The notes under the pieces were generated by a model. It did not search any database. It was not told where the DNA came from and worked only from the letters and a program-made list of their open reading frames with translations. Of a stretch of DNA of 64,000 nucleotides, positions 11,161 through 33,539 are shown piece after piece. The stretch spans positions 558,001-622,000 of the forward strand of contig NZ_CP012357.1 of assembly GCF_001267155.1 (NCBI RefSeq). The letters run 5' to 3'. A program made the position numbers and the translations under genes. Each line of letters begins with the position of its first letter. The first letter of the stretch is position 1. Source of the DNA: Spiroplasma litorale. GTDB lineage: Bacteria > Bacillota_I > Bacilli_A > Mycoplasmatales > Mycoplasmataceae.

Positions 11161-11715
11161 TTATTTATGTGAATCAATAAATTCTGTGAAAAAGTCTTTT
11201 AATTTTCAAGTGTACTTAAGTTTAATTATTACTTCTTCGTTATCATCTAAAAAAGATATTTGTAATTTTTTTCTTTTTACATCATTATCAACTTTTAATA
11301 TATTATTTTTTGTTATTATATTATTTAAAGTAACAATATTGTTTTCATAGATTATTAAATACACAGATTCAGAATACATAAAAATTAAAATAATGTTATT
11401 TATTGCAATAATACTAAAAATTAAATACATAAATGTAAAAATTAGTGATAAATAATATATTTTATTAATATATATAATTGAAAGTGTAAAAAAAATTATT
11501 ACTGAAATATATAAAACATCACTTAAATAATTAATAAATATATTAAAAATTAATGATAATTTTTTATTTTTGTAATATTTTTCTGATTTAAATAATTTTA
11601 GCTTTCTAATTTTTAAATAGTAATTAATTACAAAAAAATAGTGAATCGAAGAAGCTAATAAAAAAAACATAAAGCCAATTATAATATCTGTAGTATTAAA
11701 AAACTGATTATTCAT
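11161..11715 (-). CDS. Multi-pass membrane protein, unknown
   Basis: A 184-residue protein with about four hydrophobic segments (FFNTTDIIIGFMFFLL, YLSDVLYISVIIFFTL, YYLSLIFTFMYLIF, IAINNIILIFMYSE) and a short C-terminal hydrophilic domain. The single UGA-Trp is near the end. It starts 8 nt inside the previous gene (11708-12232), so the two are translationally coupled. No motif recognised. Confidence 0.7.
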
Positions 11716-12232
11716 TTTTATTTTTCTCCTTAATTACATTTTTCAACGTTAAATAAATTATATTTGTTTCATCTATTAAAGTATATTTAGTTTTTTGTAT
11801 AATCATAGTAATTAACCTAAATCATTGTTTGTTAATGTATGCTTGATCTATAAAAAAATTATCTACATATTCTATATTGTATTTAAAGTAAATGTTTTCT
11901 AAAATAAATAACACTGTTTTATTTGTAATGTATAGTTTCGTTTTATATATATTTTTTGAAATTTCTTTTAATTTTTTATTGTTTGTTTTTAATAAACCTT
12001 GATTATTATTGAAATAGTAGCATGTCTCATCTTCTGGTAATTCAAATTCAATTGTAACAGGCACTAACTTAAAATTTTTAATAGTAGTTTCTAGGTTTTT
12101 TTTAGAATTTATTGAAAAAATTCTTAGTTTTTTATATTTATCTTTAAATTTTAAGTATAAAAAAAATGAAGTAATTAAAGACATTAATCAAAAACAAATT
12201 ATTAAAATAATTGCTATATCTTGTGTTTTCAT
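11708..12232 (-). CDS. Single-pass membrane protein, unknown
   Basis: A 174-residue protein with one N-terminal membrane helix (IAIILIICFWLMSLITSFFL) and a soluble Lys-rich domain of about 140 residues with several beta-like strands (LVPVTIEFELPE, KTKLYITNKTVLFIL). Two UGA-Trp codons. Reading to TAA at 11708 overlaps the next start at 11715. The pair looks like a small membrane complex, but no family is recognised. Confidence 0.7.
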
Positions 12233-15071: not shown

Positions 15072-17195
15072 TTAGTTTATTGATTTAATGTGAATTTTAT
15101 TATTTGATGTTTCTATTTCGATTTTAAAAGTATTTTTCACTTTATCTTTATATTGAGTTGTATATTCAAATACTGTATTTGATTCAACTTTAATTGAAAC
15201 GTTTATATCTTTTTGTAAATTAACATAACTATCACTTATTTTGTTAAGACTATTTTGCATTTCATCAACAAAGTCTTTTAATAAATTAATAACACCAGTA
15301 AGTAATTTAGCGTTTTCATTTAAAAAGTTTTTAAATACTTCCATTGGTGAACCAGATACTGTACTTCCGTCACTATTTAAACCAAGTCCTTTAAGTAGTT
15401 CTTTGTAGTTACTTGAAGCGTTTTTTAAATTATGATCAGATGAATATAGTTTATTAAATAAACTAGATAATGTATCAAATTTAATAGGAGCTATATCTAA
15501 AGGAGATATATGTTTATCGATATCATAAACAATTTCTTTTATTGTTTTGCTGCCTAAATAAGGCATAATATATGACTTAGTATTATCAAATGAACCGTTT
15601 GACTTTATTTCACTTATATTTGATATACTCATTGGAAAAACACTTCCCAATTTATTTGGAATGTCATTAATTTTTACATTTTGAATAATATCAATTATGC
15701 TGAAACCTAATTTGTTATTTGGATCTTTTCATAAATAATCAATTCATGCATCGGCAAGTTTTGATCATTCATCATTATTTTTACCATTGTCTGTTATCTT
15801 GTTTACAAGTGTTTTAAGAAAATCAGGTAGTTCATTTATGAAGTTAGGAATTGCACCAAATATCATTGTTAAAGATCCACCACTTTCATAATCTAACCCT
15901 AGATTTATAAGTGATTTTAATAGATTGGAAATATAAATTTTTATTTCCATTCCAGAATAATTTATTGTTAATGTTTCTTCGCCTAACAAGACTACTCCAA
16001 GGTCACCAATTAATCTTCCATAAATTTCAGTATCTGATGAATATGATACATATTCTCCGCTCTCGTTTTCAGTTCCTACAATATCAACTTCGTCATCACC
16101 ATCATAATTAGTGTTATCATGTGTTAAGAATAAAATATTTAATAAGTTTTTAAATATTGTTAATCCTTCCCCGTTTTTATCATCAACTAATTTTTTTAAT
16201 AAACCAACTCATTTTTTTGAGTCGAATTCATTTTTACCAACACTTTTTGTTTTATTTGTTAAAATTACTTCTTTATCAATAACACTTTTTGTAAGTTGAT
16301 CTTCTGAATAACTATCAATATATAGTAATAAAACTCTAACAAATTTAATTATACCTGGCAAGTATTTGATTGAAGTCATTTCAAACTTTAGTGATGTTTT
16401 ACCATCGATTAAACCTTTTATTAAATTAGCAATAGATTTTGATGCATCATTAAATGTTGAAACACTTTCTTTACCAGCTAATCCGTTCATTGAATTTGCA
16501 AAATCAACCATACTATTTCTAACTGCGTCAACATATGTTTTTTCAGTATTTGCATCATATTTAAATGCGTTTTCAAAGTCTTTCAATACTTTATTATCAT
16601 TTTCAGTTAATGAATTTATTGCGCCTTCTAGTGTATCTTTAAAGTCATATATTGCTCCTTGAAAACCATATAAAGTTGCAAGTAATCCATTTAATTGTTC
16701 TGGACTTGATAAACCATTAAGAATAATAGGTATATAAGTATTAATTGTTGATAATATTGAAGGAACTGATTCTTTTGAGTTTAAAACCTCATCCTTATAG
16801 ATGTTTTCACCAATCTCGGTTTTGCTATCAGCCAATGTATTTTCTGAACCAAATAATTTTGCAACTGCGTCTTTAAAGTAATCACTACTATCCTTTTTAA
16901 ATTCACCAGAAATATCTTCTTTGAAATTCAAGTCCTTAATTTTTTTATTACCTAATAAATTAAAATAATCACTTGAACTATAGTGGTCTGTGGTATCACC
17001 TGCACCCAAATCTAATAGTGAATTTTGATTTACATACAATGCTTTTGCATATTGTGATAAAGCAACTGCTTCTGCATTATTATTTGTATTGTTTTCGTTA
17101 TTGTTTGATGATTCGTTTCCGCCACATGCAACTGCATATGAAGAACTTGAAGCAACTAAAGATATTGCTCCTAATACGCTTATTAATTTTTTCAT
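15072..17195 (-). CDS. MOLPALP-type paralogous lipoprotein 2
   Basis: A 707-residue lipoprotein with signal MKKLISVLGAISLVASSSS and lipobox AVAC-G (Cys24), followed by an Asn-rich linker and the same body as the gene at 12725. Middle (about residues 60-310) and C-terminal thirds are nearly identical to paralogue 1, while a segment around residues 360-430 (SGGSLTMIFGAIPNFINELP) has diverged. This mosaic suggests gene conversion. Surface location follows from the signal; function unknown. Confidence 0.85.
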
Positions 17196-20277: not shown

Positions 20278-21543
20278 TTATTTAGATATAAACTTACTTG
20301 TTATTAATGAAAAAATTCAATATGTAAAAATAATTATAAAATTAATTAAATAAAGTTTATTTGTTTCTTCGTTATGAACAGATAAATAGTTTAAAACTGA
20401 TGATTCAATAAAAATTATTATTGGTAATGCTATGTTTAGGATTATATTAAATACATTAAATGATTTGTATTCAAATACTTCAAGTATGCTAGTAAAAATA
20501 TAACTTAGTAACATTGTTGATAAAACAATATACACAATATAACATAAAAAAGTTATTAATTCAGATTCGTATCAATCACTTGAACTCTTCATTATTGGAG
20601 ATAATATTATATTTAAAAAGATATCTATAAAAATAAAACAAATGAACATTAAATAAACAAATAAATGTCCTCAAAATATTTTTATACTATGCTTTTTTCG
20701 ATTATATATAAGATTAAAAATAAACAATAGACTAGAAATCAAGAAAACACAAAGAGAAAATGATCCATAAAAAAACTTATTAAGGTCAACCCCTATTCCA
20801 TAAAGCATCCCCCCTACTGCACCATATAAAATTAAAGAAATAATAAAAGCTGGGTACAAAAAGTAAGAAAATCTTGAAATATATAAACTTGTAATTTTTC
20901 ATTTGTTAACTTCATATTCATGTGAATGTACATCTTTATTATGTAATGATAAATAAAAACTTATTACAAATCAGCTATTTTTATTGTAATATTCATTCAC
21001 TCTTTTTAAATCAAACATATTTTCTGTTTTTAGGTGCATCAACTTATCTTTTTCTTTTTTATAAGTTTCATTAATGTTTTCCATGACTAAGGAACAAGAT
21101 TGATAAAGGTCACTAAAATCATGATTACTTAAAATTCTTGAAGCTAATTCGTCTATTAATAGGTTTAAATAAACCGGTCTATATTTAATCGAACTATAAT
21201 CTTTTATGTTATGTTTAATTTTATCAATTTTTTGATCTTTTATATTTTCTTTCAAAACAGATAAATATTTAATTACATTATCGTATTCGAACAAAATATT
21301 ATTTCTCAAATTTTTTTTATAATCTTTTAAGTTTTTAATATTAAAAAAAAGAATTGTTTTAATTGCACCATATACAATAGTAAAAATGGACCCTAAAATC
21401 AATAACTTAAATGGACTAAAGATTTGATACAAAGTAGTTTGAACTTTACTTTTATCATAAAGATAATCTATTCAAGAACTATAAATATAGTATAAAAAAG
21501 TCATTATTGTAATGAAAACAATTTCATATATTATTTTTTTCAT
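20278..21543 (-). CDS. Large membrane protein with cytosolic helical loop, unknown
   Basis: A 421-residue protein: two N-terminal membrane helices (IIYEIVFITIMTFLYYIY and FKLLILGSIFTIVYG), then about 150 residues of charged, probably helical sequence, then about five helices (YPAFIISLILYGAVG onwards). Several UGA-Trp codons. Shares its layout (helices, long charged middle) with other unknown membrane proteins of the window but no motif is recognised. ATG at 21543 is preceded by GAGGAAG. Confidence 0.65.
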
Positions 21544-21620: not shown

Positions 21621-23195
21621 TTAAATGGTTGATAAATCATAATAATCATAATTAATTTTTAAATTATCGTCTGTTTTAAAAGTTAGTATTTCATTATCGT
21701 TTTCTTCTAAAAACTTTAGCATTGTAAAAGTTGATCCATCTGGGAACTTCATTTCTAAAGTTGTTTTGTCTAATAATATTTCTATGCTATTATTTTTAAA
21801 ATTTTTCAAATCAGCGTAATACTCTCTAATATTTGAAAACCCTTCATTATTTTTTAAGTTTTTGTATGTAGAGCTTCTTTTTACTGATATTTTATTATTT
21901 GTAAAATCAAGTTTTATTTTTGCGTTATATGAATTAGCATTTAACTCAAAGTTTATATTACTATTAAAATTATTTAAATTATTCAAGTTTATTACCATTT
22001 TAAAAATTCCACCAATTTCAGTAAAACTATTTTTATTAATTAGCTCAACTTTTTTTGTTTTTAAAGTATTTTCAAAACCTAAAAAATCAGAATTTATTGT
22101 GTAATTTGGTTTGTTTTCTGTGCCTGTATTTTCTAATGAAACTTCTCTCGCAACTGACATTGAACCAATTCTGCCATCATCTGGTAGTTGATATATATAA
22201 CTTCAACTTCCTAATCACGCTGTTGAAATCAATTTATCAACATTCAAATTTGATTGCTGGTTTAACATATATTTTGCAGCATAATAATCAGGTCCAAAAT
22301 CAAATCTCTTTGTTTCTTGATTTTCATCTGGAATAAAAACATAGTTGTTATCAATTTCCCCAACCACATAGTAAGTACCAGTATATAAATTATCTGAATC
22401 TTGACCTCAACCGCCATTACCACCATAAAATAAAACAAACTTCTTTTTGTTTGAATTTTTTACATTCATTTGAAATATATTTGGACATTCTAACATTGGA
22501 TGTTTAGCATAGTATTTTCCGGTTTTAAAGTATTCACCAGTTGGTTCATCAGCTACTCAAACACCAAAATTATCATTTTGTGCTAAATACATAACATATT
22601 TTCCATCCATTTTAAAGAAGAATGGATCTCTAAAGTCTCCTGGGTTATCATATTCTTGTTTCCTATTTATTATTGGAGTATCTTTAATTGGTATAAAATT
22701 ATATCCTCCATCAATTGAATAATAACCCATTATATTTTGTTCATTTCTTGCGAAAGATGAAACCATTGCTATAATTGTTCCTTCACCATATTTAAAAAAA
22801 TTATTTTTATCTTCAAAAACTGTGCCAGATGAAATGTCATTATAATATGTTAAATCTTTATCAGCTGCAATCCCGATATAATTTCAATGAATTCAATCTT
22901 TAGTAGTTACATGATACATGGTAGAACCCCATTTACCATGATTAGTCCCATCATCATCAAATACTGCTTCATTATTATATAAATAATATACGTGCCAATA
23001 ACCATCTCTATAAAATCCGCCTAAAATATCATTCATCAATCCAGTTTCTTGCATTTGAACATGAAATTTATTGCTAAATCTTTCTTGGAAACTTTTTTGA
23101 TAATTACTATACGAAGATAGAGTAGCAAAAAAATATGCCCCAGCAGATAGGTATATTAGTGCAAATGCAGTTATTATTCATCTAAATTTACTCAT
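21621..23195 (-). CDS. Membrane-anchored GH32 fructan/sucrose hydrolase
   Basis: A 524-residue GH32 enzyme. An N-terminal hydrophobic segment (IITAFALIYLSAGAYFF) with no lipobox acts as signal anchor. Catalytic elements: nucleophile region LMNDILGG (Asp56), FRDP transition-state stabiliser (Asp190), and ECPN acid/base (Glu236). A C-terminal beta-sandwich follows (about 360-524). The usual NDPNG is replaced by NDILGG, as in the two neighbours. Should hydrolyse fructosyl linkages outside the cell. Last of a three-gene GH32 series; RBS AAAGGA. Confidence 0.9.
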
Positions 23196-23214
23196 CGCTA
23201 TTTCCTTTAAAAAT

Positions 23215-24817
23215 TTATTTTTTTATTTGATAATAACTATATCTTAAATTACTTGCTTTTGTAGATAATTTTATATCTTCGAATGATTTTGAATCAACAA
23301 ATTTTAGCATTGTAAATGTTGAATTATCCGTAAATTTGAACTCTACAATTGTTTTATCGATATATATTTCTAAATTTGAAGATTTTTTAAGAGCTTTTAA
23401 ATTAGAATTATAAATTCTTTCCTTTGTAAATTCTTCTTTTCCATAGTTAAAATCAACTTTAATATCTCTTTTTACTTTTATTTTATTATTAGTATAATCT
23501 AAATTAACCTTAATTGAATATTGATTATCACCAATAATTAAATTAACTTCATTGTTGCCGATATTATTTCAAGAAAAATCAGCTTTATAATATTTACCTA
23601 TTAAATTGTTTGATTTAATTAAATTAGAATCACTTAAATATTTTCCTTCACTTTCAGGTTTAAAGTTATTAAACCCTATATAATCAGATTTCATAATATA
23701 TTCAAAACCAGTTGAATTAGTTTCTTTTGTTAATTTTATTTCTCTTGCCAAAGACATATTTCCAAGTCTTCCATCATTTGGTATAGAATAATTATAACTT
23801 CAATTACTTACTCAACCAGTTGTAATTAAACTATCAATATTTGTATTATAAGGACTTTTTGTCATAAATTTTGCAGCATAATAATCGGGTCCAAAATCTA
23901 ATCTTTTGTAGCTTTTATCACTATCTGGTTTAAAGACATATGTTTTTTCATCTAAATCTCCAACTACATAATAAGTACCTGAAGAAAGATCATCTTTATT
24001 TTCACCTCAACCGCCATTACCACCATACAGTGCAACTCATTTTTTTTCAACTTTTTCTTCATATTCTACGTTCATTTGAAATATATTTGGACATTCTAAC
24101 ATTGGGTGTTGAGCTTTGAAAGATCCTGTTTTTTCATATCCGCTTATTGGGTTATTAGATACATATACTCCAAATTCATTTTCTTCTGCAATATACATAA
24201 TAAATTTATTATCTTTTTTAAAAAAATATGGATCTCTAAAATTTTCGTTTGTTTCTTTATGTGGATTTCATAAAATTGGTTCTTCTTTTACTGGTAAAAA
24301 ATTATATCCTCCATCAATTGAGTAAGACATCATTATATTTTGGCCTTCATCACTGTATGAGGTTGTAACTGCAATAATCGCTTCATTACCATAACCAAAA
24401 TCATCATTAACATCTTCAAAAAAAAGTTCCTGATGCTTGATCACCATACTTTGTTGTAAATTTTGGTACAGCAGGTCCTTCGTAATTTCAGTTTATTCAA
24501 TCTATTGTAGTGACATGATATCAAACAGAACCAAATTTACCATGATTAGCACCAGATGAATCAAAAATGCCATCTGCATTTTGTAAAAAGTAAACATGCC
24601 ATTTTCCATCTCTATAAAATCCACCCTGAATATCATTCATCATCCCAGTGGTTGGGTTTTGTACGTGGAATTTATTTGTAAATTTTTCATTATTTATTTC
24701 TGGTAAAGAATAACTTGTATGTGGTTTTGAAAAACTTTGTTTAAAAGCCAAACTCATAGATGAAATAAAAATTGATAAAATTGAAAATAATAATCCCATA
24801 AATATTGTTTTTTTCAT
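23215..24817 (-). pseudogene. Secreted GH32 enzyme, frameshifted at a T8 tract
   Basis: An apparently complete GH32 enzyme (about 533 residues if repaired) with a Sec signal (IFMGLLFSILSIFISSMSLA), nucleophile GMMNDIQGG, NFRDP and ECPN. After GGAACT the run at 24418-24425 has 8 bases where 7 keep the frame (TFFEDV). The unshifted frame stops at 24407 after 136 residues. The remaining frame to 23215 is fully open. Either slippage or phase change restores the protein, or the gene is dead or the base count is wrong. Spaced 13 bp from the upstream GH32 gene and 19 bp from the downstream one. Confidence 0.85.
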
Positions 24818-24830
24818 ATATATCCCCTAT

Positions 24831-26510
24831 TTAATATTGATAATAATCGTAATTAAAACTTATTTTTGTAGATGATTCTAATGTTAATTTTTCAACAGAC
24901 TTACCATCTGGAAACTTTACTAAAGATATAGTAGAACCATCTGGCATTATAGCTTCGATTGAAGTTGTATCAACATATAATGAAATTTTTGCTTTATTAA
25001 GTTTGTTAATATTTGCACTGTATTTTCTTTTTTGAATAAATCCATTATTGTTTTTAATTGTTTCATCAAGTGAACTTCGATATGTTGATATTTGATTATC
25101 ATTAAAATCTAATTTTAAAGTATTTTTATATGTTTCGTCATTAAAAACTAAGTTAATAATTCCTTTTGATTTATCAGTGTTTTTAAACTCTAAATCCAGT
25201 TTATAACTACCACCTTTTAAGGTTCTATCAACAAAAAAACTTTCATTTCCATATGATGATGATTCTAAATTTTCATTGTCAATAAATGATTGTTTCAAAG
25301 AATAAATTCCTTCATCATTTTTAACTAATAATATCTTTCTAGCCAAAGACATGTTTCCTCAGTATCCAGTATTAGGAACTATCCTGTTATAATCCCAACT
25401 ACTCATTCAACCAGTACCAATTAAATACTTTCCTAAGTCATCATCATTCTCTTTGGTATCTTCAAAAAACTTTGCTGCATAAAAATCTGCACCAAAATCA
25501 AGTCTCTTAGGTCCTTGTTCTTCAACAAATACAAAATTTTCATTTAAGTGACCTATAGAATAATAAGTTCCAGTACCCAAATTATCAATAAATTCAGGTT
25601 GACCATTATCATTATTACCATTTCCTCCATAAATCATAATATATTTTTTTGAGTTTTTATCTCCATTGACATTTAATTCAAATAAATTTGCACATTCAAC
25701 CATTGCGTGCTTTGCGTAATAATCACCTTTATGTTCATAACCTTTTAAAGGATTTTCAGAAACATATACACCAAATTTATCTAGTTGTGAAACATACATA
25801 ATAAATTTGCCATCTTTTTTAAAAAAATGTGGATCTCGAAAATCTGGATATGTTCCTTCAGGTTGGTTATTTTTTAATATTGGCTCACTATCATTTAATG
25901 GATTAAAATTATATCCAAAATCATTACCTTCCCCATTTTCTCCAGGGTTAGAATAATATGCTAATATATTTTGCCCTTTTTCACCACCATAACCTGTAGA
26001 AATCGAAACTCTACCATTTTTAAGATTTTTAACATTAAAATCTCCATCTTTGTCAATGAATAATGTTCCACCAGCGGCATCGCCTCAACCTTTACTATTT
26101 CATTTTTTTACAGCTAACCCTTTATATTCATAATTTACAAAGTCCTTTGTTTGCATATGAAACCATTCAGTACCATTTTTACCTATTTGTTCTCCGTTTT
26201 CATTATAATTAGCTTCGCTATTGTATAAGAAGTACAAATGTCAGTAAGTACCATCAAATCATGCACCTTGCATATCGTTTAACATTCCTTTTTTATCTGG
26301 CGTATCAACATGAAATTTATTGTAATATCTTTCATTATAGTTTGGACTTGTTAACCTAGAACCATTAATTAAATTTATTTTTGTTAGATTTTCAACTTCC
26401 TTGTTTGCATCTTCTTTATTGCTTGTGTTATTATTTGTACAAGAAATTGAAGATAATAAAACATTACCACTAAGGCATATTAAAGATAATATACTTAATA
26501 CTTTTTTCAT
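24831..26510 (-). CDS. Lipoprotein GH32 fructan/sucrose hydrolase
   Basis: A 559-residue GH32 enzyme with a lipoprotein signal (lipobox LSSISC, Cys about 24) and an Asn/Glu-rich linker. Catalytic motifs are KGMLNDMQGA (nucleophile), DFRDP (stabiliser) and VECAN (acid/base). The beta-sandwich domain begins near WDYNR. No frameshift. First gene of the GH32 operon; its promoter lies in 26511-26655, next to a terminator that the copy C insertion regenerated. The acid/base motif ECAN differs from ECPN in the other three GH32 proteins. Confidence 0.9.
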
Positions 26511-26654
26511 TTTTAATCCCCTCTATAGTAAATTATAGATATATAAAATAATAAATAAATAGTATATTTAAAAAAAATTATTTTTACTTACATAATTTAT
26601 ATAAAGTAAAAATATATTATCTACATTTCTTATAATATTTATTAGGTCTTCATT

Positions 26655-26685
26655 TAAATAAAAAATAACCAGCGAAATAACTGGT
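26655..26685 (-). terminator. Terminator downstream of scrB, regenerated beside IS copy C
   Basis: On the minus strand ACCAG-TTATTTCG-CTGGT followed by a T-rich run. The same loop and one arm recur at 28014-28028 on the other side of copy C, so the original scrB terminator was the insertion site. Confidence 0.75.
26671..26685. repeat. 15-bp direct repeat flanking IS copy C, left
   Basis: AGCGAAATAACTGGT, identical to 28014-28028. Confidence 0.85.
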
Positions 26686-28013
26686 AAACATATTCTGTCA
26701 AGTATAGAATATGTTTTTTTATTCTAAATTGAGTTTCAAACCTCTCACGGTGTGCCTCATTTTTAACCATCACTTTATTAAAATTATAATAATACAAATA
26801 ATCTACAACAGTATTATAAACTGATTCAAAATTTTTATATTTACCAGTATATCACTCTGTTTTTATAGAAGAAAAGAATGTTTCACAAGCAGCATTATCA
26901 AGAGAACATCCAGGGTTACTTAGTGAAATTTGAATATTATTTTTTTACAAAATTCTTTACTATAATTTGATGTGTATTGAAAACCATTATCTGAATGTAT
27001 TATAAGATTTTTGTTTTTGATGAAATAATTTTTAGCCATTTTTAAAGTGTTTATGTATATTTTATTATCATTTCTAATCGAAATGTCATAACCAACTATA
27101 AAACCTGTTTTTACATCTTTCATAATACTTAAATATGCAAACTTTTTATTAGCATAAGGTAAATAAGTAACATCCGTTACAAATAATTCGCCTTTATCAT
27201 ATTTTTTTTATTGTCTATTTACAATATTAGGTATTGATTTATTTTTAACTTTGATTTCTTTTGGTTTTTAATTTTCTTTTTAATCTTATTTTTGATTTAA
27301 TACCCAATAGTTTCATATATTTGTATACTAATTTATTTGACGCTATACAGTTATAATTTCTTTTTAAATTTATTCTAATTCTTGGATATCCATAAGTTTC
27401 ATTGTGCTATTTAAATATATCTTTGATTTTATTAGTTAAATTATTATCAAATTTGTAATTAAATTTAGGTTTCCTTTTTTTTACTCATCTATAATAACTT
27501 GCTTGAGTTGTTTGGAGCGCATAACATAAAAACTTAATTGATCAATATTTTTTATTATTTTCAATGTATAAATATTTTAACTCTTGTATTTTTCTAAATT
27601 ATCCAGGGATTGATTGAACTTTTTTAGGATTTCATTCTCCATTTCTAAAAGTTTATTTTTTTTCTTTAGTTCCTGAAGTTCTTTTCTTAACAGATTACCT
27701 CTTAATTCATTATTTACTCTACTTATGCCACAACTTTACCCAACTCTCGTTGATATTTTCTTTAAGTAATCCTCACCATACTCTTCATAACCAAGCGCTC
27801 ATTTTCTTGCAGCGGAATAAGATACATCATATTTTTTAGCTATTTTTTTCATGATGGTTGATTTTTAGATCAATCTTTTGCTATTTCTAATTTCTTTTCA
27901 AAAGACACTATATTTGATTTATTTCCTTTTAAATTTGCCATATAAAAAATCCTCTATGTATAGATTATATTAGATTTTTTTATTCTAACTCTATACATAA
28001 AGGATTATATTCA
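26686..28013 (-). mobile_element. Decayed IS3-like element, copy C
   Basis: About 1.33 kb between two 15-bp direct repeats. Ends contain weakly similar inverted sequences with AAAAAAA/TTTTTTT blocks (near 26711 and 27975). Its transposase belongs to the same superfamily as the A and B elements but is a different sequence. Exact ends are uncertain by several bases. Confidence 0.75.
26705..27941 (-). pseudogene. Degenerate IS3-family transposase remnant (C)
   Basis: From ATG 27941 (MANLKGNKSNIVSFEKKLE) a helix-turn-helix region follows (KKYDVSYSAARKWALG), then a coiled segment, then an rve core with LFVTDVTYLPYANKKFAYLS, NLIIHSDNGFQY and NAACETFFSSIKTEW. Multiple stops and frameshifts interrupt it (for example the extra base after KEFCKKI and a stop in the loop after NIVNRQ), so it is inactive. 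The DDE residues can still be read in separate frames. Confidence 0.85.
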
Positions 28014-28028
28014 AGCGAAATAACTGGT
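28014..28028. repeat. 15-bp direct repeat flanking IS copy C, right
   Basis: AGCGAAATAACTGGT, identical to 26671-26685. It includes one arm of the scrB terminator. Confidence 0.85.
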
Positions 28029-28061
28029 TTTTTTTACTCCTTTTTTAAAAGAATTTTTCAT

Positions 28062-29513
28062 TTACTTATAAATTATTGGACTTATATTAGAAACTTCAAA
28101 TTCTTGATCACATGAAAATTCAATTCTATTAAAGTTTTTTACAAAAAATCTTGAAGTAAATACTGTTTTATAATCATCGGCAAATAGTTCGATTGAAGAT
28201 GAATCAATAAATATTTCAACTATTTGAGGTTTATTTTTGATTTTTCTTTTTGCATATCTTGTTGTTTCAAAATCTCAGTCAACTTGTGAAGTTTGATTAG
28301 ATCTATCCATAATTATTTCATCATCAGTAAATTTAACTTCTAAATATTCATTATTATCATTTAAAATTTTAAAATCTATATTTCCATTTAAAGTAAATTT
28401 TAAATGTTTATTTTTATTAATGTTTATATTGTTAGTTTTAACTATTTTTTTATCTTTTAACACATTATTTACAAATTCTAAATACGGTTTTTGTACTAGT
28501 TCATCATTTTCAATTGACATTTCTCTAGGAATTGTAAGCATTGAGTGTCATGAATATTCGTCTGTAGGATACTGAACATCACAAACTCCAAATCATCCGA
28601 TATTTAATAATTTATTGTTTGCTCAATATGTTTGTGGAGCATAAAAGTCATAACCATAATCCATGTTTTTCATTGCAAATTTCTCATTTAATTGATTTCC
28701 ATCAAAATCAATTTTATCGATTATTGTATATACTACATTTCTTGAACTATTTAACTCATATTTATCTTTTTCATTAAAATAACCTTCTGCTGAAATAAAG
28801 AATAAATATTTATCATTTATTTTATCTAAATTTGGACATTCTCACATATATCCATAAGTATTCCCTTTAATACTTGGTTTTAAGATTGTTTTGAAAGTAA
28901 AATCATCATAATCATTCATTTCATAAACTGCTAAACCACCTAAGTCATCTTCTTTTGTTCTTACACCAAATATCATATATTTTTTATTATTATGTTCAAA
29001 AATTTTAGGATCTCTAGCATGTGGAGTAAATTTGTCGCCATCTCAGTCAACAGCTACTCTTTTATTAATTATTTTTTCATTTTCAAAATCTGCAACCAAC
29101 TGAATTTCTTCAGTCATATTACCTTTTCCATCTTCCATATTTCCAGTGTAATATATTTTAACGGTGTCACCAAAATCATATGCACTTCCTGAAAATGAAC
29201 CGAATGCTTCTTTTTCGTGATCTGGAACTACTGAAACACCTTTATCCTCATAATTTACAAAGTCTTTTGTCTTAACATATCTTCAATGTTTAAAACCATG
29301 ATATGGTTCAACTGGTGATCATTGATAATGAATATGATGTATTCCATCCTTAAATAACAACCCATTAGGGTCATTTACTAACCCATTTGGTGAAGCTATA
29401 TGATATGTAGGTCTATAGAACACATCTTCTTTAACAAGTTTGTTTGCTTCTTCATAATATTTATTATCAATTTCATTATATTTTTTTCATTGTATATCTT
29501 TAATTCTTTTCAT
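28062..29513 (-). CDS. scrB: Cytoplasmic sucrose-6-phosphate hydrolase ScrB (GH32)
   Basis: A 483-residue GH32 enzyme without signal peptide. Motifs are canonical: SPNGLVNDPNG (nucleophile Asp48), ARDP, and WECPN. It hydrolyses sucrose-6-phosphate, formed by the PTS permease just upstream, to glucose-6-P and fructose. Its ATG (29513) sits next to the scrA stop (29515) and uses the GGAG inside the scrA end, giving coupled translation. Several UGA-Trp codons. Sequence differs clearly from the three exported GH32 enzymes. Confidence 0.9.
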
Positions 29514-29514
29514 T

Positions 29515-31119
29515 TTATTCTCCTTTTTTAATGGTTTTGATATTTTCTTGTTTTTTTACTGAGTCGATAACTGGAATTGGAGCAAAATCTCTTTCTAAAA
29601 TAGAGTTTGTCATTTTTTTAAAGTAACTTACTCTTGATAAAAGAATTGTTGCAATGAAAGTAGTACCAATTGTTACGACTAAGGCTATTGCCATTCATAA
29701 AAACCCTGTTCCAGCTCATGTTGACATATTAAACTCAGAAATTCTTGAAGCTTGCGGAATTATTGTTAAGAAAACAAGTAATGAACATGGTCCCATTGTT
29801 GTAAGAACCCCAGATGCAGTTGTTATAATTACTCCTGCTGTCGTACCAATACTTACAGCTATTACTGGGAATAAAAATCTTAGTGCTACACCAAATAATG
29901 CAGGTTCAGTTGATCCTCCCACAAAGGCTATTAGATATGAAGGAACTGCTGTTTTTTGTAGTTCTTTATTTTTTTTGTTTAATATTGAAAAAGCAAGTAC
30001 GCTTGTAGCAACTGAAACATTTAATTGAGTGAACATTGGGTTTATTGAAGTTGCATTATAAGTCATGAATTGTTGTAAAGCTACTACAACAAATATTTGT
30101 ATAAATCCCGTCACAACTAGTCAAGGTAGCATAATTGCAAATAATGGATTAAATATAAATTTCGCAATTTCATGTGTAGTTGCTCATAATACTGCTATAT
30201 TCATTCCATAAGTAATCATCATACCAATTGGTGCAATAAGAAGTTGAGCTACAAAGAATGAAACTAGCACAACCATTGGAATACCAAAGATTTCTTTTAC
30301 AACACCTCATTTAATTTTTCTAACCAATCTTTCTAGATAAACAGCTATAAAACCAATTAAAACTAATGGTAATATTTGTCCTTCGTATGAAATTTTTCAT
30401 GGATATCCACTTAATAAGTTTGAATATGATCACTCACCAGCGCTACCAGAATGTCCTCATTCAAATAGTGGTTTTCCTGAACCCATAAAATCATTTGTTG
30501 AAGTCATATCTTTAGCACATAAAACTACACCAATAGATATCCCTATTGCCTCACTACCCTTCATTAGTTTAAAAATAGATCATGGGATTAATATACTAAA
30601 AGACAAAGCTAAGGATTTTTGAAGAGTTGCCATAATTTTTCCTAATGTTAAAGCAAACTCGCCAGTATCTTTTATTGCTTGACCATTAACTTCAATACCA
30701 TTTATAATATTTTCAATTGTTGATACAATTGATAAAGTTATTAAATAAGGTATTATAGGCATTACTAAAATACCTATTCCGTCTGTTAATGATTTGAAAA
30801 AACCTTTTTTAGTAGTTAATTTAACATCATAAAAATTAGCTACTTTTTTTAAAGATACCCCTAAACATTTTAATAAATCTTTATTAAAATGTTCGATATT
30901 ATTTCTTACAACGAATTGAACCAAGTCATCTTTTACAATGACACCAGTTATTAGAGAATTATTCTTTATTTTTTCAACTTCTACTTTATTTAAATCAATA
31001 ACCTTTATTCTCATTCTAGTAGCACAATGACTAACATTCTTAATGTTTTCAACATTACCTAAAGCATCAGCAACTAAAATGATGTCATTATCAATATTTT
31101 TTTTACTAAAAATCTTCAT
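29515..31119 (-). CDS. scrA: PTS sucrose-type EIIBC permease
   Basis: A 534-residue glucose/sucrose-superfamily PTS permease. The EIIB domain (1-90) has the phospho-Cys in NVSHCATRMR (Cys32), and EIIC follows with about ten helices, including GHSGSAGEW, FVGGSTEPALFGVALRF and TTMGPCSLLVFL. No EIIA domain, so it must use a separate EIIA. Adjacency to scrB makes sucrose the likely substrate, but other alpha- or beta-glucosides are possible. RBS GAAAGGA. Confidence 0.85.
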
Positions 31120-31361: not shown

Positions 31362-33539
31362 TTATATTTTTTTTATGTTTGAAACAAAAAGATAATTTCC
31401 ACTATAATTTAGTTTAATTTCAAATTTATTTTCTAAATTTGTTGTTTTATTTTTTACTAGATAAATATAATCATTAACTTTATTTTCCACTATACTTACT
31501 TCGGTATTGTCATAATACGCATTAACGATCTCTTTGGTTTTTGAAAGTTTTTTATTATAAGAACTAATCATTGTGCTTAAAGTATTAATAACTGAATTTA
31601 ATCATGGTAAATTCTCATTTACTATAACTTGCAGTTGTTCAAGTGGAGAATCTTTTGCAATGGTGCTATCATCATTTAAACCTAAAATTTTCATAAAATT
31701 ATCAACGTCTTCAGTTGCTTTAGTAAAAGTATTATTTGTATATAATCTTTTAAATAAAATTGCAAATGAATCAAATTTAATTTTAAAGTTTGTATCAGGT
31801 TTTTCTTTTTTTTGATTATCTATATCCGCTTTTATAGAATTAACAATAGATTGTAATGAATTAGAAGTCAAGAATCCTAATCCTAAATCTTTTTTATTAT
31901 CAAATATTTTATTTTTTTCTGATGTGTTGCCTGAATTAAATAATTGTGAATTTAATAAGTTTTCTAATGGTTCAGATAATATTTTTTTAATTGAAAGATT
32001 TAGTTTTTCATTTTCATTATCATATAAATAATTAATTCATTTACCTGATTTTCCAAAAAATTCACTTCAATCTTTTGAATCGATATTAGAAACAATATTT
32101 TTTAATAAATCTGGCAATTTATCTTTAAAACTTGGTAGCAAAGCTATTAAAGTACTAAAACCTATTTGAATTCCACCAACTAATTGAGTTTTACCACCTG
32201 TATCATAGCCAACACCTCAATTTACAAAACTTCTTATAACCGAATCTATATATAGTGTTATAGTTTTTCCCATAGCATCTACAACTAATTTTTCTTCTCC
32301 CACAAGCTTTATAGCTAAACGTGATAAAATGTTAATTAATCCGTTTTTTCCACCTTCATATTTTTTATTAATATTAGTTGCATCAATAACATTTTCTTTA
32401 TCTGTTGCTGGAGTTGCCAGTAATACGCCAAGTAAATTTTTTAAAGTTAGTCCACCTTTACTATCTGTATCATTTACCACATAACTTAAAACTTCGATTG
32501 CATTATCAAAATCAAAAACATTTTCTTCTTCTTTAATTTTTGCAGTTCTTTTAGTTTCTAACATTTCAATAAAATTATTTCCATCATATTCTGTAGTTAA
32601 GTCTTTAATACTAAATGAATTTAAGTAAACTAATAATGATCTTATAAAGAATATTAGCTCTGGAAAACTACTTATATCAAGAAGTATATCTAATTTAAGA
32701 CTTTTTGTTCCATTTAAAATTTCGATTAAGTTTGTTGCTATTTTTTCTGAGGCAACATTAATGTTAGAATTAATTTCACTACTATTTTTATATGTTAATT
32801 TTTCTGTACTTTCGTCTTTATTTATAATTTTATCAACTGAGTTTGAAAGTGCAATAATACCTGCGTTTAAACCATCCTCATAACTTAAAAATACACCTTT
32901 ATCATCTTTAAATGCTTCTACTGAAAATGCTTTTTCTAAATCTTTTAATACATTATTATCAATTAATTTACCTAAAGTTTTCAATAAAGCTGGTGATACT
33001 AAATCTTTTAGTTTTTTTGACAAAATACTCATAAGTGGTCCAAAAGCTGCAGGGTTTGATAATGACTTCAATATCATTGGAAGTGATTGAACTAATGATG
33101 TAATTGTACCAACCATACCTGTAACTTCTGGAGCAACTACTCCATCTTTGTATATTCCATCTTCAACATTAGTATTATCATTTACAATATCGGTGCTATT
33201 TTTAAAATATTTGCTTGCTATATCGCTGTATCTTGTAAAATCATTTGTTTCGACATTTTTAAAATCACCTAAATTTAAATTTCTAATATAATTATCTTTA
33301 ACATAATCCTTCATTAAATATGATGAACTATAATGTATTTTATTTAATCCTTCGTTAGTTGTGTCTATTTCATTCTCATTTATATAAAGTGCTTTTGCAT
33401 ATTGTGACATTAATTTAGATATATTTTCTTGATCATCACTATTATCAAAAATTGTGTTTGCATTACCACATGCTGTCACCAAAGATATTGATGATGATGT
33501 AATTGAAATTATCCCTAAAATACTAATTAATTTTTTCAT
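31362..33539 (-). CDS. MOLPALP-type paralogous lipoprotein 3
   Basis: A 725-residue lipoprotein with signal MKKLISILGIISITSSSIS, lipobox LVTAC-G (Cys24) and the family element MSQYAKALYINENE. It follows the same plan as the genes at 12725 and 15072 (helical body, LPSFKDKLPDLLKNIV, C-terminal beta-rich tail) but has diverged along the whole length, so it does not take part in the recent sequence exchange between the other two. An in-frame A8 tract at 31806-31813 is correctly phased here. Surface protein of unknown role. Confidence 0.85.

Follow-up and report, generated by a model that had tools for sequence, protein, structure and literature searches.

Tandem exported GH32 paralogs of the LevB levanase branch in Spiroplasma litorale

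Background

The closest described relatives of the proteins considered here are levan hydrolases of the GH32 family. The relevant passages of PMC5245892 report that LevB1 of Bacillus licheniformis does not cut sucrose, kestoses or inulin, and that the surface endolevanase BT1760 of Bacteroides thetaiotaomicron has the nucleophile region GFVGDPMP, which departs from the common NDPNG motif. Here we describe three tandem genes for exported GH32 proteins, called a, b and c below, in a window (the whole stretch of DNA that was analysed) of 64,000 nucleotides from Spiroplasma litorale (contig NZ_CP012357.1, positions 558,001 to 622,000). These proteins fall in the LevB branch of the family, and we favour, with moderate confidence, the view that they are surface fructan (probably levan) depolymerases whose oligomeric products enter the cell by an ATP-binding cassette (ABC) importer encoded elsewhere. 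GH32 itself is a known family; what looks new is its setting here and the variant of the pocket.

According to the sections of PMC4591310 that bear on the strain, S. litorale TN-1 is a gut isolate of the horsefly Tabanus nigrovittatus and has a chromosome of 1,225,519 bp. Passages of PMC5726471 already report the sucrose genes scrA/B/K in S. diminutum, and passages of PMC6007557 describe the gain of carbohydrate genes by transfer. Our literature search found no paper on exported GH32 proteins in Spiroplasma; in PMC8426549, the fructan and levansucrase passages concern Brenneria.

Anatomy and phylogeny of the GH32 array

The anatomy, breakage, orthology, clade membership, motif changes and synteny are shown by the analyses set out below. 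Under genetic code 4 and in window coordinates, the array consists of the following features:

21621..23195, minus strand: GH32 a, 524 aa, with an N-terminal membrane anchor and without a lipobox; catalytic residues kept; NDILGG
23215..24447, minus strand: 3' piece of GH32 b, with the RDP and EC motifs and the C-terminal part, without the nucleophile
24407..24817, minus strand: 5' piece of GH32 b, 136 aa, with the signal and the nucleophile motif NDIQGG; TAA stop after the frame break
24418..24425, minus strand: T8 run, site of the frame break in b
24831..26510, minus strand: GH32 c, a lipoprotein of 559 aa; lipobox SISC with Cys24; NDMQGA

Against a PF00251 cut-off of 22.1 bits, a scores 132.7, c 135.1 and the two pieces of b 114.8 and 37.3 bits. 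The nucleophile Asp, RDP and EC(P/A)N stand within one protein in a and in c and are divided between the pieces in b. An AlphaFold model of a, the one protein modelled (predicted local distance difference test, pLDDT, 90.8; predicted template modelling score, pTM, 0.89), has the GH32 fold of five-bladed propeller and beta-sandwich, with a long N-terminal helix, and the 50 matches listed in a structure search with this model are all GH32-type (Z 25.6-38.5). On TIGR01322, the model of the cytoplasmic-type enzyme ScrB, a and c reach 82.4 and 78.9 bits, below the cut-off of 356.4. An earlier note on this DNA had read the nucleophile motif of the three proteins as ND(I/M)xGG/A, unlike the NDPNG of ScrB, and this reading holds for NDILGG in a, NDIQGG in b and NDMQGA in c.

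Phylogenies place these proteins with LevB1. In a 95-row tree, the 24 Spiroplasma rows form a clade with a support of 99 (Shimodaira-Hasegawa-like approximate likelihood ratio test, SH-aLRT), joined first by four Lactobacillus plasmid GH32 proteins (99) and next by LevB1 (99). The same nodes receive 99, 99 and 97 in a 65-row mixture-model tree that contains three more LevB-like plasmid proteins, and in a tree without Lactobacillus the Spiroplasma-LevB link has a support of 98. A clade of the Spiroplasma rows with the two ScrB-type proteins of S. litorale was rejected (approximately unbiased test, p-AU 0.0144, from a single test on a quickly searched tree). Several species are represented in each of the groups a, b and c, with support values of 97 and 91 for b. 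The tree placement proposed in the earlier note thus sets the proteins with LevB-type levanases and apart from ScrB (SH-aLRT 97-99), among rows that did not include levan fructotransferase or BT1760. Likewise, LevB1 is the best PDB sequence match for a, for c and for a profile of the 24 Spiroplasma rows, the profile giving LevB1 205 bits versus 153.6 for the next entry and 88 for levan fructotransferase.

A pair of residue changes accompanies this grouping. Motifs were counted in one alignment that combined all 93 candidates, the Spiroplasma proteins, the PDB entries and ScrB, each count covering the rows with letters at that place. Position 4 of NDPNG is Gln in 21/24 Spiroplasma rows, and the Gln of FFQYN is replaced by Leu (LYN) in all 24; both changes also occur in 4/4 Lactobacillus rows, in LevB1 and, by eye, in the three LevB-like plasmid proteins. 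In the other 85 rows, position 4 is Asn in 77/79 and the FFQYN Gln is present in 77/78, the sole Leu belonging to L054, whose NDPNG motif is itself lost. By this combination (NDxQ with the Leu of LYN, a criterion defined here and unpublished), c and the 5' piece of b have both changes, and a has the Leu with NDIL. The earlier suggestion that NDxQ marks levan hydrolases is borne out for LevB1 and the three LevB-like plasmid proteins. The paired changes look as if a Gln had moved between two places in the fructose pocket, and levan activity of the Spiroplasma enzymes is predicted.

Comparison with described systems

LevB1 (PDB 9h8i) resembles the Spiroplasma proteins in clade, GH32 fold and catalytic triad, and it has NDxQ with the LYN Leu in common with c and the 5' piece of b, a sharing the Leu alone. 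It differs in that the Spiroplasma proteins have Ile, Met or Val for the Pro of NDP and appear to be membrane-fixed tandem paralogs of a wall-less bacterium, known from sequence. The plasmid GH32 proteins of Lactobacillus gasseri/johnsonii/taiwanensis (L177-L179, L183), the sister group in the trees, carry NDLQ and LHS and have a TGTYY-VG-LD stretch in common with the Spiroplasma proteins, but their signal peptide, judged by eye, is without a lipobox. These NDLQ proteins are the nearest kin found outside Spiroplasma, and their records give the family name only.

The likeness to BT1760 is one of arrangement: there a surface-bound GH32 enzyme cuts levan before uptake, as is proposed here for Spiroplasma, and likewise has a nucleophile region other than NDPNG, but its identity to the model of a is 13-14%. 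The levan machinery of B. thetaiotaomicron works with uptake across an outer membrane, which Spiroplasma lacks. A Bacteroides plasmid protein (L181) considered as a relative of BT1760 was dropped because its GWMNDPNG does not fit GFVGDPMP. Spiroplasma ScrB is also a GH32 protein and adjoins the array in S. litorale; it differs from the array proteins by having no signal, by NDPNG and by its separate branch in the trees.

Export and surface retention

Protein a has a hydrophobic N-terminus without a lipobox, which is absent from all six a-type proteins, and c carries a lipobox, which is present in 7/7 c-type proteins (in two of them the first called start lies upstream). Nine intact b-type relatives were read from five species, five of the nine being from genome G003. 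Eight have the lipobox Cys at position 24, and the ninth (L093, in G003) is without a signal. The b protein of S. litorale has Ala at position 24 in place of this Cys. The cleavable Sec signal ascribed to b in the earlier note is thus an altered lipobox, carried by a gene whose frame is broken. Hence, the three retention types of that note reduce to two, the anchor of a and the lipoprotein of c. LspA is encoded in the S. litorale genome (85.6 bits), and c has the features expected of a lipoprotein, which a, and b of this window, do not.

Release into the medium, also part of the earlier picture, is not supported by a search for signal peptidase I: PF10502 has no match in any of 20 Spiroplasma genomes (12 of 14 control genomes match), and TIGR02228 has none in the S. 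litorale genome. It is possible that a peptidase of another kind cleaves secreted proteins. It should be noted that a single broken gene was enough to suggest three exit routes at one locus.

The broken frame of gene b

The stretch from 23215 that had been taken for one enzyme is split at the T8 run, with the nucleophile in the 5' piece and RDP and EC in the other frame. Neither piece contains a further stop. When changes at codon positions 1-2 are divided by those at position 3, the ratio is 0.27 in the 5' piece, versus 0.24-0.32 in three orthologs, and 0.42 in the 3' piece, versus 0.31-0.44. This ratio is not raised in b, which makes the break look recent, as it probably is. Second-position changes in the 5' piece (10/99, versus 4-6 of 93-95 in the orthologs) are a slight sign of slackening constraint.

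The absence of other stops and the unremarkable codon-position ratio are also what would be seen if b were still alive, with slippage at the T8 run, in DNA or RNA, yielding full-length protein part of the time. A very recent break would look identical, however, and the excess of second-position changes and the loss of the lipobox Cys, a second change expected of decay, speak against a living gene. Runs of eight T are moreover ordinary here, with eight in the 42 open reading frames (ORFs) of at least 150 aa in the window, seven of them in ORFs other than b, so slippage at b could occur but has no special support; the T8 run was accordingly rejected as evidence of a special slippage site. We judge a living b to be rather unlikely. 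A sequencing error would suit the position of the break in a homopolymer, but the assembly rests, in the portion of PMC4591310 that describes it, on about 4.2 million 300-base Illumina reads that were mapped and inspected by eye, which makes this explanation very improbable. Elsewhere in the window (11161-12232), two neighbouring ORFs with an 8-base overlap each contain a T8 run.

A fourth exported GH32 and the uptake genes

S. litorale encodes a fourth exported GH32 protein of the anchor type (genome 726,401-727,909; L098:6390-7910), which the earlier note had missed and which sits next to a MalFGK-like ABC importer and a regulator of the GntR type. Near it, a GH85 domain (89 bits; the family of endo-beta-N-acetylglucosaminidases) occurs in a lipoprotein-like protein encoded at L098:1-2208. 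In genome G003, one cluster contains, in order, a kinase fragment (identified by BLAST, at the locus edge), ScrB, a DeoR-type regulator, a PfkB kinase, a signal-less GH32, a further PfkB kinase, an ADP-ribosylglycohydrolase-family protein, an ABC ATPase, two permeases, two genes without a family and a lipoprotein GH32. The importers of G003 and S. litorale are related, the ATPases being 69% identical and the permeases 37 and 50%. This cluster and its related importer provide the best clue to a route in which the polymer would be cut outside, the oligomers taken in by the ABC importer and their breakdown finished inside. Two fructose phosphotransferase system (PTS) IIC genes of S. litorale score above the cut-off. 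No GH68 match was found in the S. litorale genome; the polymer would therefore be supplied by other microbes or by what the host eats.

Proposed function and alternatives

We propose that the array represents an old tandem group of GH32 paralogs that are exported and belong to the LevB (endolevanase) branch. They would be fixed to the outer face of the wall-less cell, a by its signal anchor and the others (c, and b in relatives) by lipid. The enzymes would cut fructan, levan being likelier than inulin, by the retaining double displacement of GH32, and would give short oligofructosides and fructose. The oligomers would then enter by the MalFGK-like ABC importer encoded next to the fourth exported paralog, and free fructose by the fructose PTS permeases. 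Substrate, endo action and uptake route are the predicted parts of this scheme.

Several observations weigh against it. Between a and LevB1, sequence identity is low (22-24%). The Gln has been lost both from a and from its ortholog in S. corruscae, which have NDIL, and a may therefore differ in function. The trees come from quick searches with long branches and chosen rows (66 and 30 of the 93 candidates). The ABC importer is encoded outside the window. G003 carries two b-type copies in the vicinity of ScrB, a signal-less one at a distance of 1.8 kb and a lipoprotein at about 15 kb, so that a functional tie to ScrB may exist. In the structure search with the model of a, levan fructotransferase, endo-inulinase and exo-inulinase tie at Z 37.9-38.5, with LevB1 at 33.0, and Foldseek ranks yeast invertases first. 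Since several GH32 types tie, the fold does not decide which enzyme is nearest.

The proteins might instead be invertases or exo-fructosidases of the cell surface, acting on sucrose or on short fructo-oligosaccharides of nectar and honeydew to yield fructose and glucose. Sucrose is likely to be present in the host diet, there are clear sequence matches to yeast invertases and exo-inulinases, and the top Foldseek match of a agrees with such a role. However, the tree and the NDxQ/LYN swap tie the proteins to LevB-type enzymes, the passages of PMC5245892 cited above deny LevB1 an activity on sucrose, and two ScrB-type genes with PTS partners could already serve this sugar; we therefore hold an invertase role to be unlikely, though well worth keeping in mind. 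Transferase activity, for example that of a levan fructotransferase, or action on another fructose-containing glycan would accord with a pocket motif unlike that of ordinary GH32 proteins and with the levan fructotransferase among the tied top structural matches (Z 38.5), but the Spiroplasma profile scores that enzyme far below LevB1, and we consider this alternative decidedly improbable.

Mollicutes are usually regarded as living on simple host sugars. Fructan-cutting at the surface, expanded to eight clade members in one species and decayed in another, would tie the ecology of Spiroplasma to plant or bacterial fructans in insect food, and the NDxQ/LYN swap offers a testable mark for a little-studied levanase branch.

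Distribution of the array

Seven of 20 Spiroplasma genomes, S. litorale included, match P0001, and one of these, S. turonicum, has broken remnants alone. The a/b/c set, found in six species and decayed in the seventh, is old. The S. turonicum remnants (L097:7000-8900) contain many stops and are decayed. PF00251 has ten matches in genome G003, of which eight belong to the Spiroplasma clade; six of these genes stand in a row (L092:6094-16382) and two lie elsewhere, a strong species-specific expansion. Outside the genus, 298 genomes drawn from the order gave no close match and five weak ones, and the best match among 395 genomes drawn from the class reached 113 bits. A search of the contigs of named genomes yielded 51 loci, distant kin only, whose titles name no Spiroplasma (near records may be omitted).

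Neighbouring genes and rearrangement

The array is flanked by the following features:

20278..21543, minus strand: membrane protein of 421 aa, downstream of a
26668..26685, minus strand: intrinsic-terminator-like hairpin between ScrB and c (three such hairpins in the scanned stretch, 1.4 expected by shuffling)
26671..28028, minus strand: broken IS3-type element with 15-nt direct repeats at 26671-26685 and 28014-28028; transposase named by eye
28062..29513, minus strand: ScrB-type GH32 with NDPNG; no signal by eye
29515..31119, minus strand: PTS EIIBC adjoining ScrB

Four genes of the five-gene picture given earlier are confirmed, namely a, c, the ScrB-type GH32 and the PTS EIIBC, and b is split between two frames. 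The same note had treated all of these as one locus. The genes do adjoin, but loosely: a terminator-like hairpin (one of three in 11.4 kb scanned) is overlapped by a 15-nt repeat of the insertion sequence (IS) relic, labelled IS3-type by eye from ORF pieces, and the presence of hairpin and relic between ScrB and c argues for separate transcription.

The order of genes in relatives does not support a working unit with PTS and ScrB, as had been supposed, given that S. litorale is the only one of six species in which the a/b/c array lies beside these genes, with the two G003 copies described above as an exception to the general distance from ScrB. The distance between array and ScrB is about 22-23 kb in G009 and G017 and greater in S. 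helicoides and G003; in S. corruscae, a lies 27 kb from ScrB, and b and c are elsewhere. Of eight relatives compared, six have the PTS gene beside this ScrB, G017 and G003 being the exceptions. In G009, G017 and S. turonicum, the 421-aa gene comes immediately after ScrB or no more than 1.8 kb beyond it, which marks the older gene order and implies that the array came to lie between ScrB and the 421-aa gene in S. litorale. A rearrangement would thus have separated ScrB from its successor in relatives, with the array now between the two and the IS relic at the junction.

The ScrB-type protein scores 231 bits on PF00251 and 317.7 bits on TIGR01322, below the cut-off of 356.4. For the adjoining PTS, the best model is that for trehalose (189.2 bits, cut-off 591.95), and the sucrose model TIGR01996 gives 145.1 bits (cut-off 559.3), so that neither score places it in its family and ScrA membership is not supported. 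A second ScrB-type gene elsewhere in the genome (TIGR01322 316.3 bits, likewise below 356.4) was likewise missed by the earlier note; it adjoins a more sucrose-like PTS, whose 380 bits fall short of the required 559, and a gene that looks by eye like one for a kinase.

GH68 genes and other surface proteins

Genes of GH68, the levansucrase family, were found in 3/20 genomes (L198:3100-4491, L199:2832-4181 and L200:2582-3961), with an N-terminal signal by eye. None of these three genomes, one of which is probably that of the flower isolate S. floricola, matches the exported GH32 proteins. The GH32 set (7/20) and the GH68 set (3/20) therefore do not overlap, a result that chance alone would give about one time in four. 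We offer as a speculation that the horsefly and firefly spiroplasmas harvest levan at the surface with a rebuilt pocket and that other species export GH68, the making and cutting of levan being split between lineages. An equally tentative order of rebuilding would begin with NDxQ/LYN, followed by loss of the Pro and, in a, also of the Gln. If true, flowers or insect guts would be places where levan serves as a shared good.

Large lipoprotein-like proteins of 725 and 707 aa with similar N-termini are encoded at 31362-33539 and 15072-17195 of the window, and are perhaps members of a paralogous surface family.

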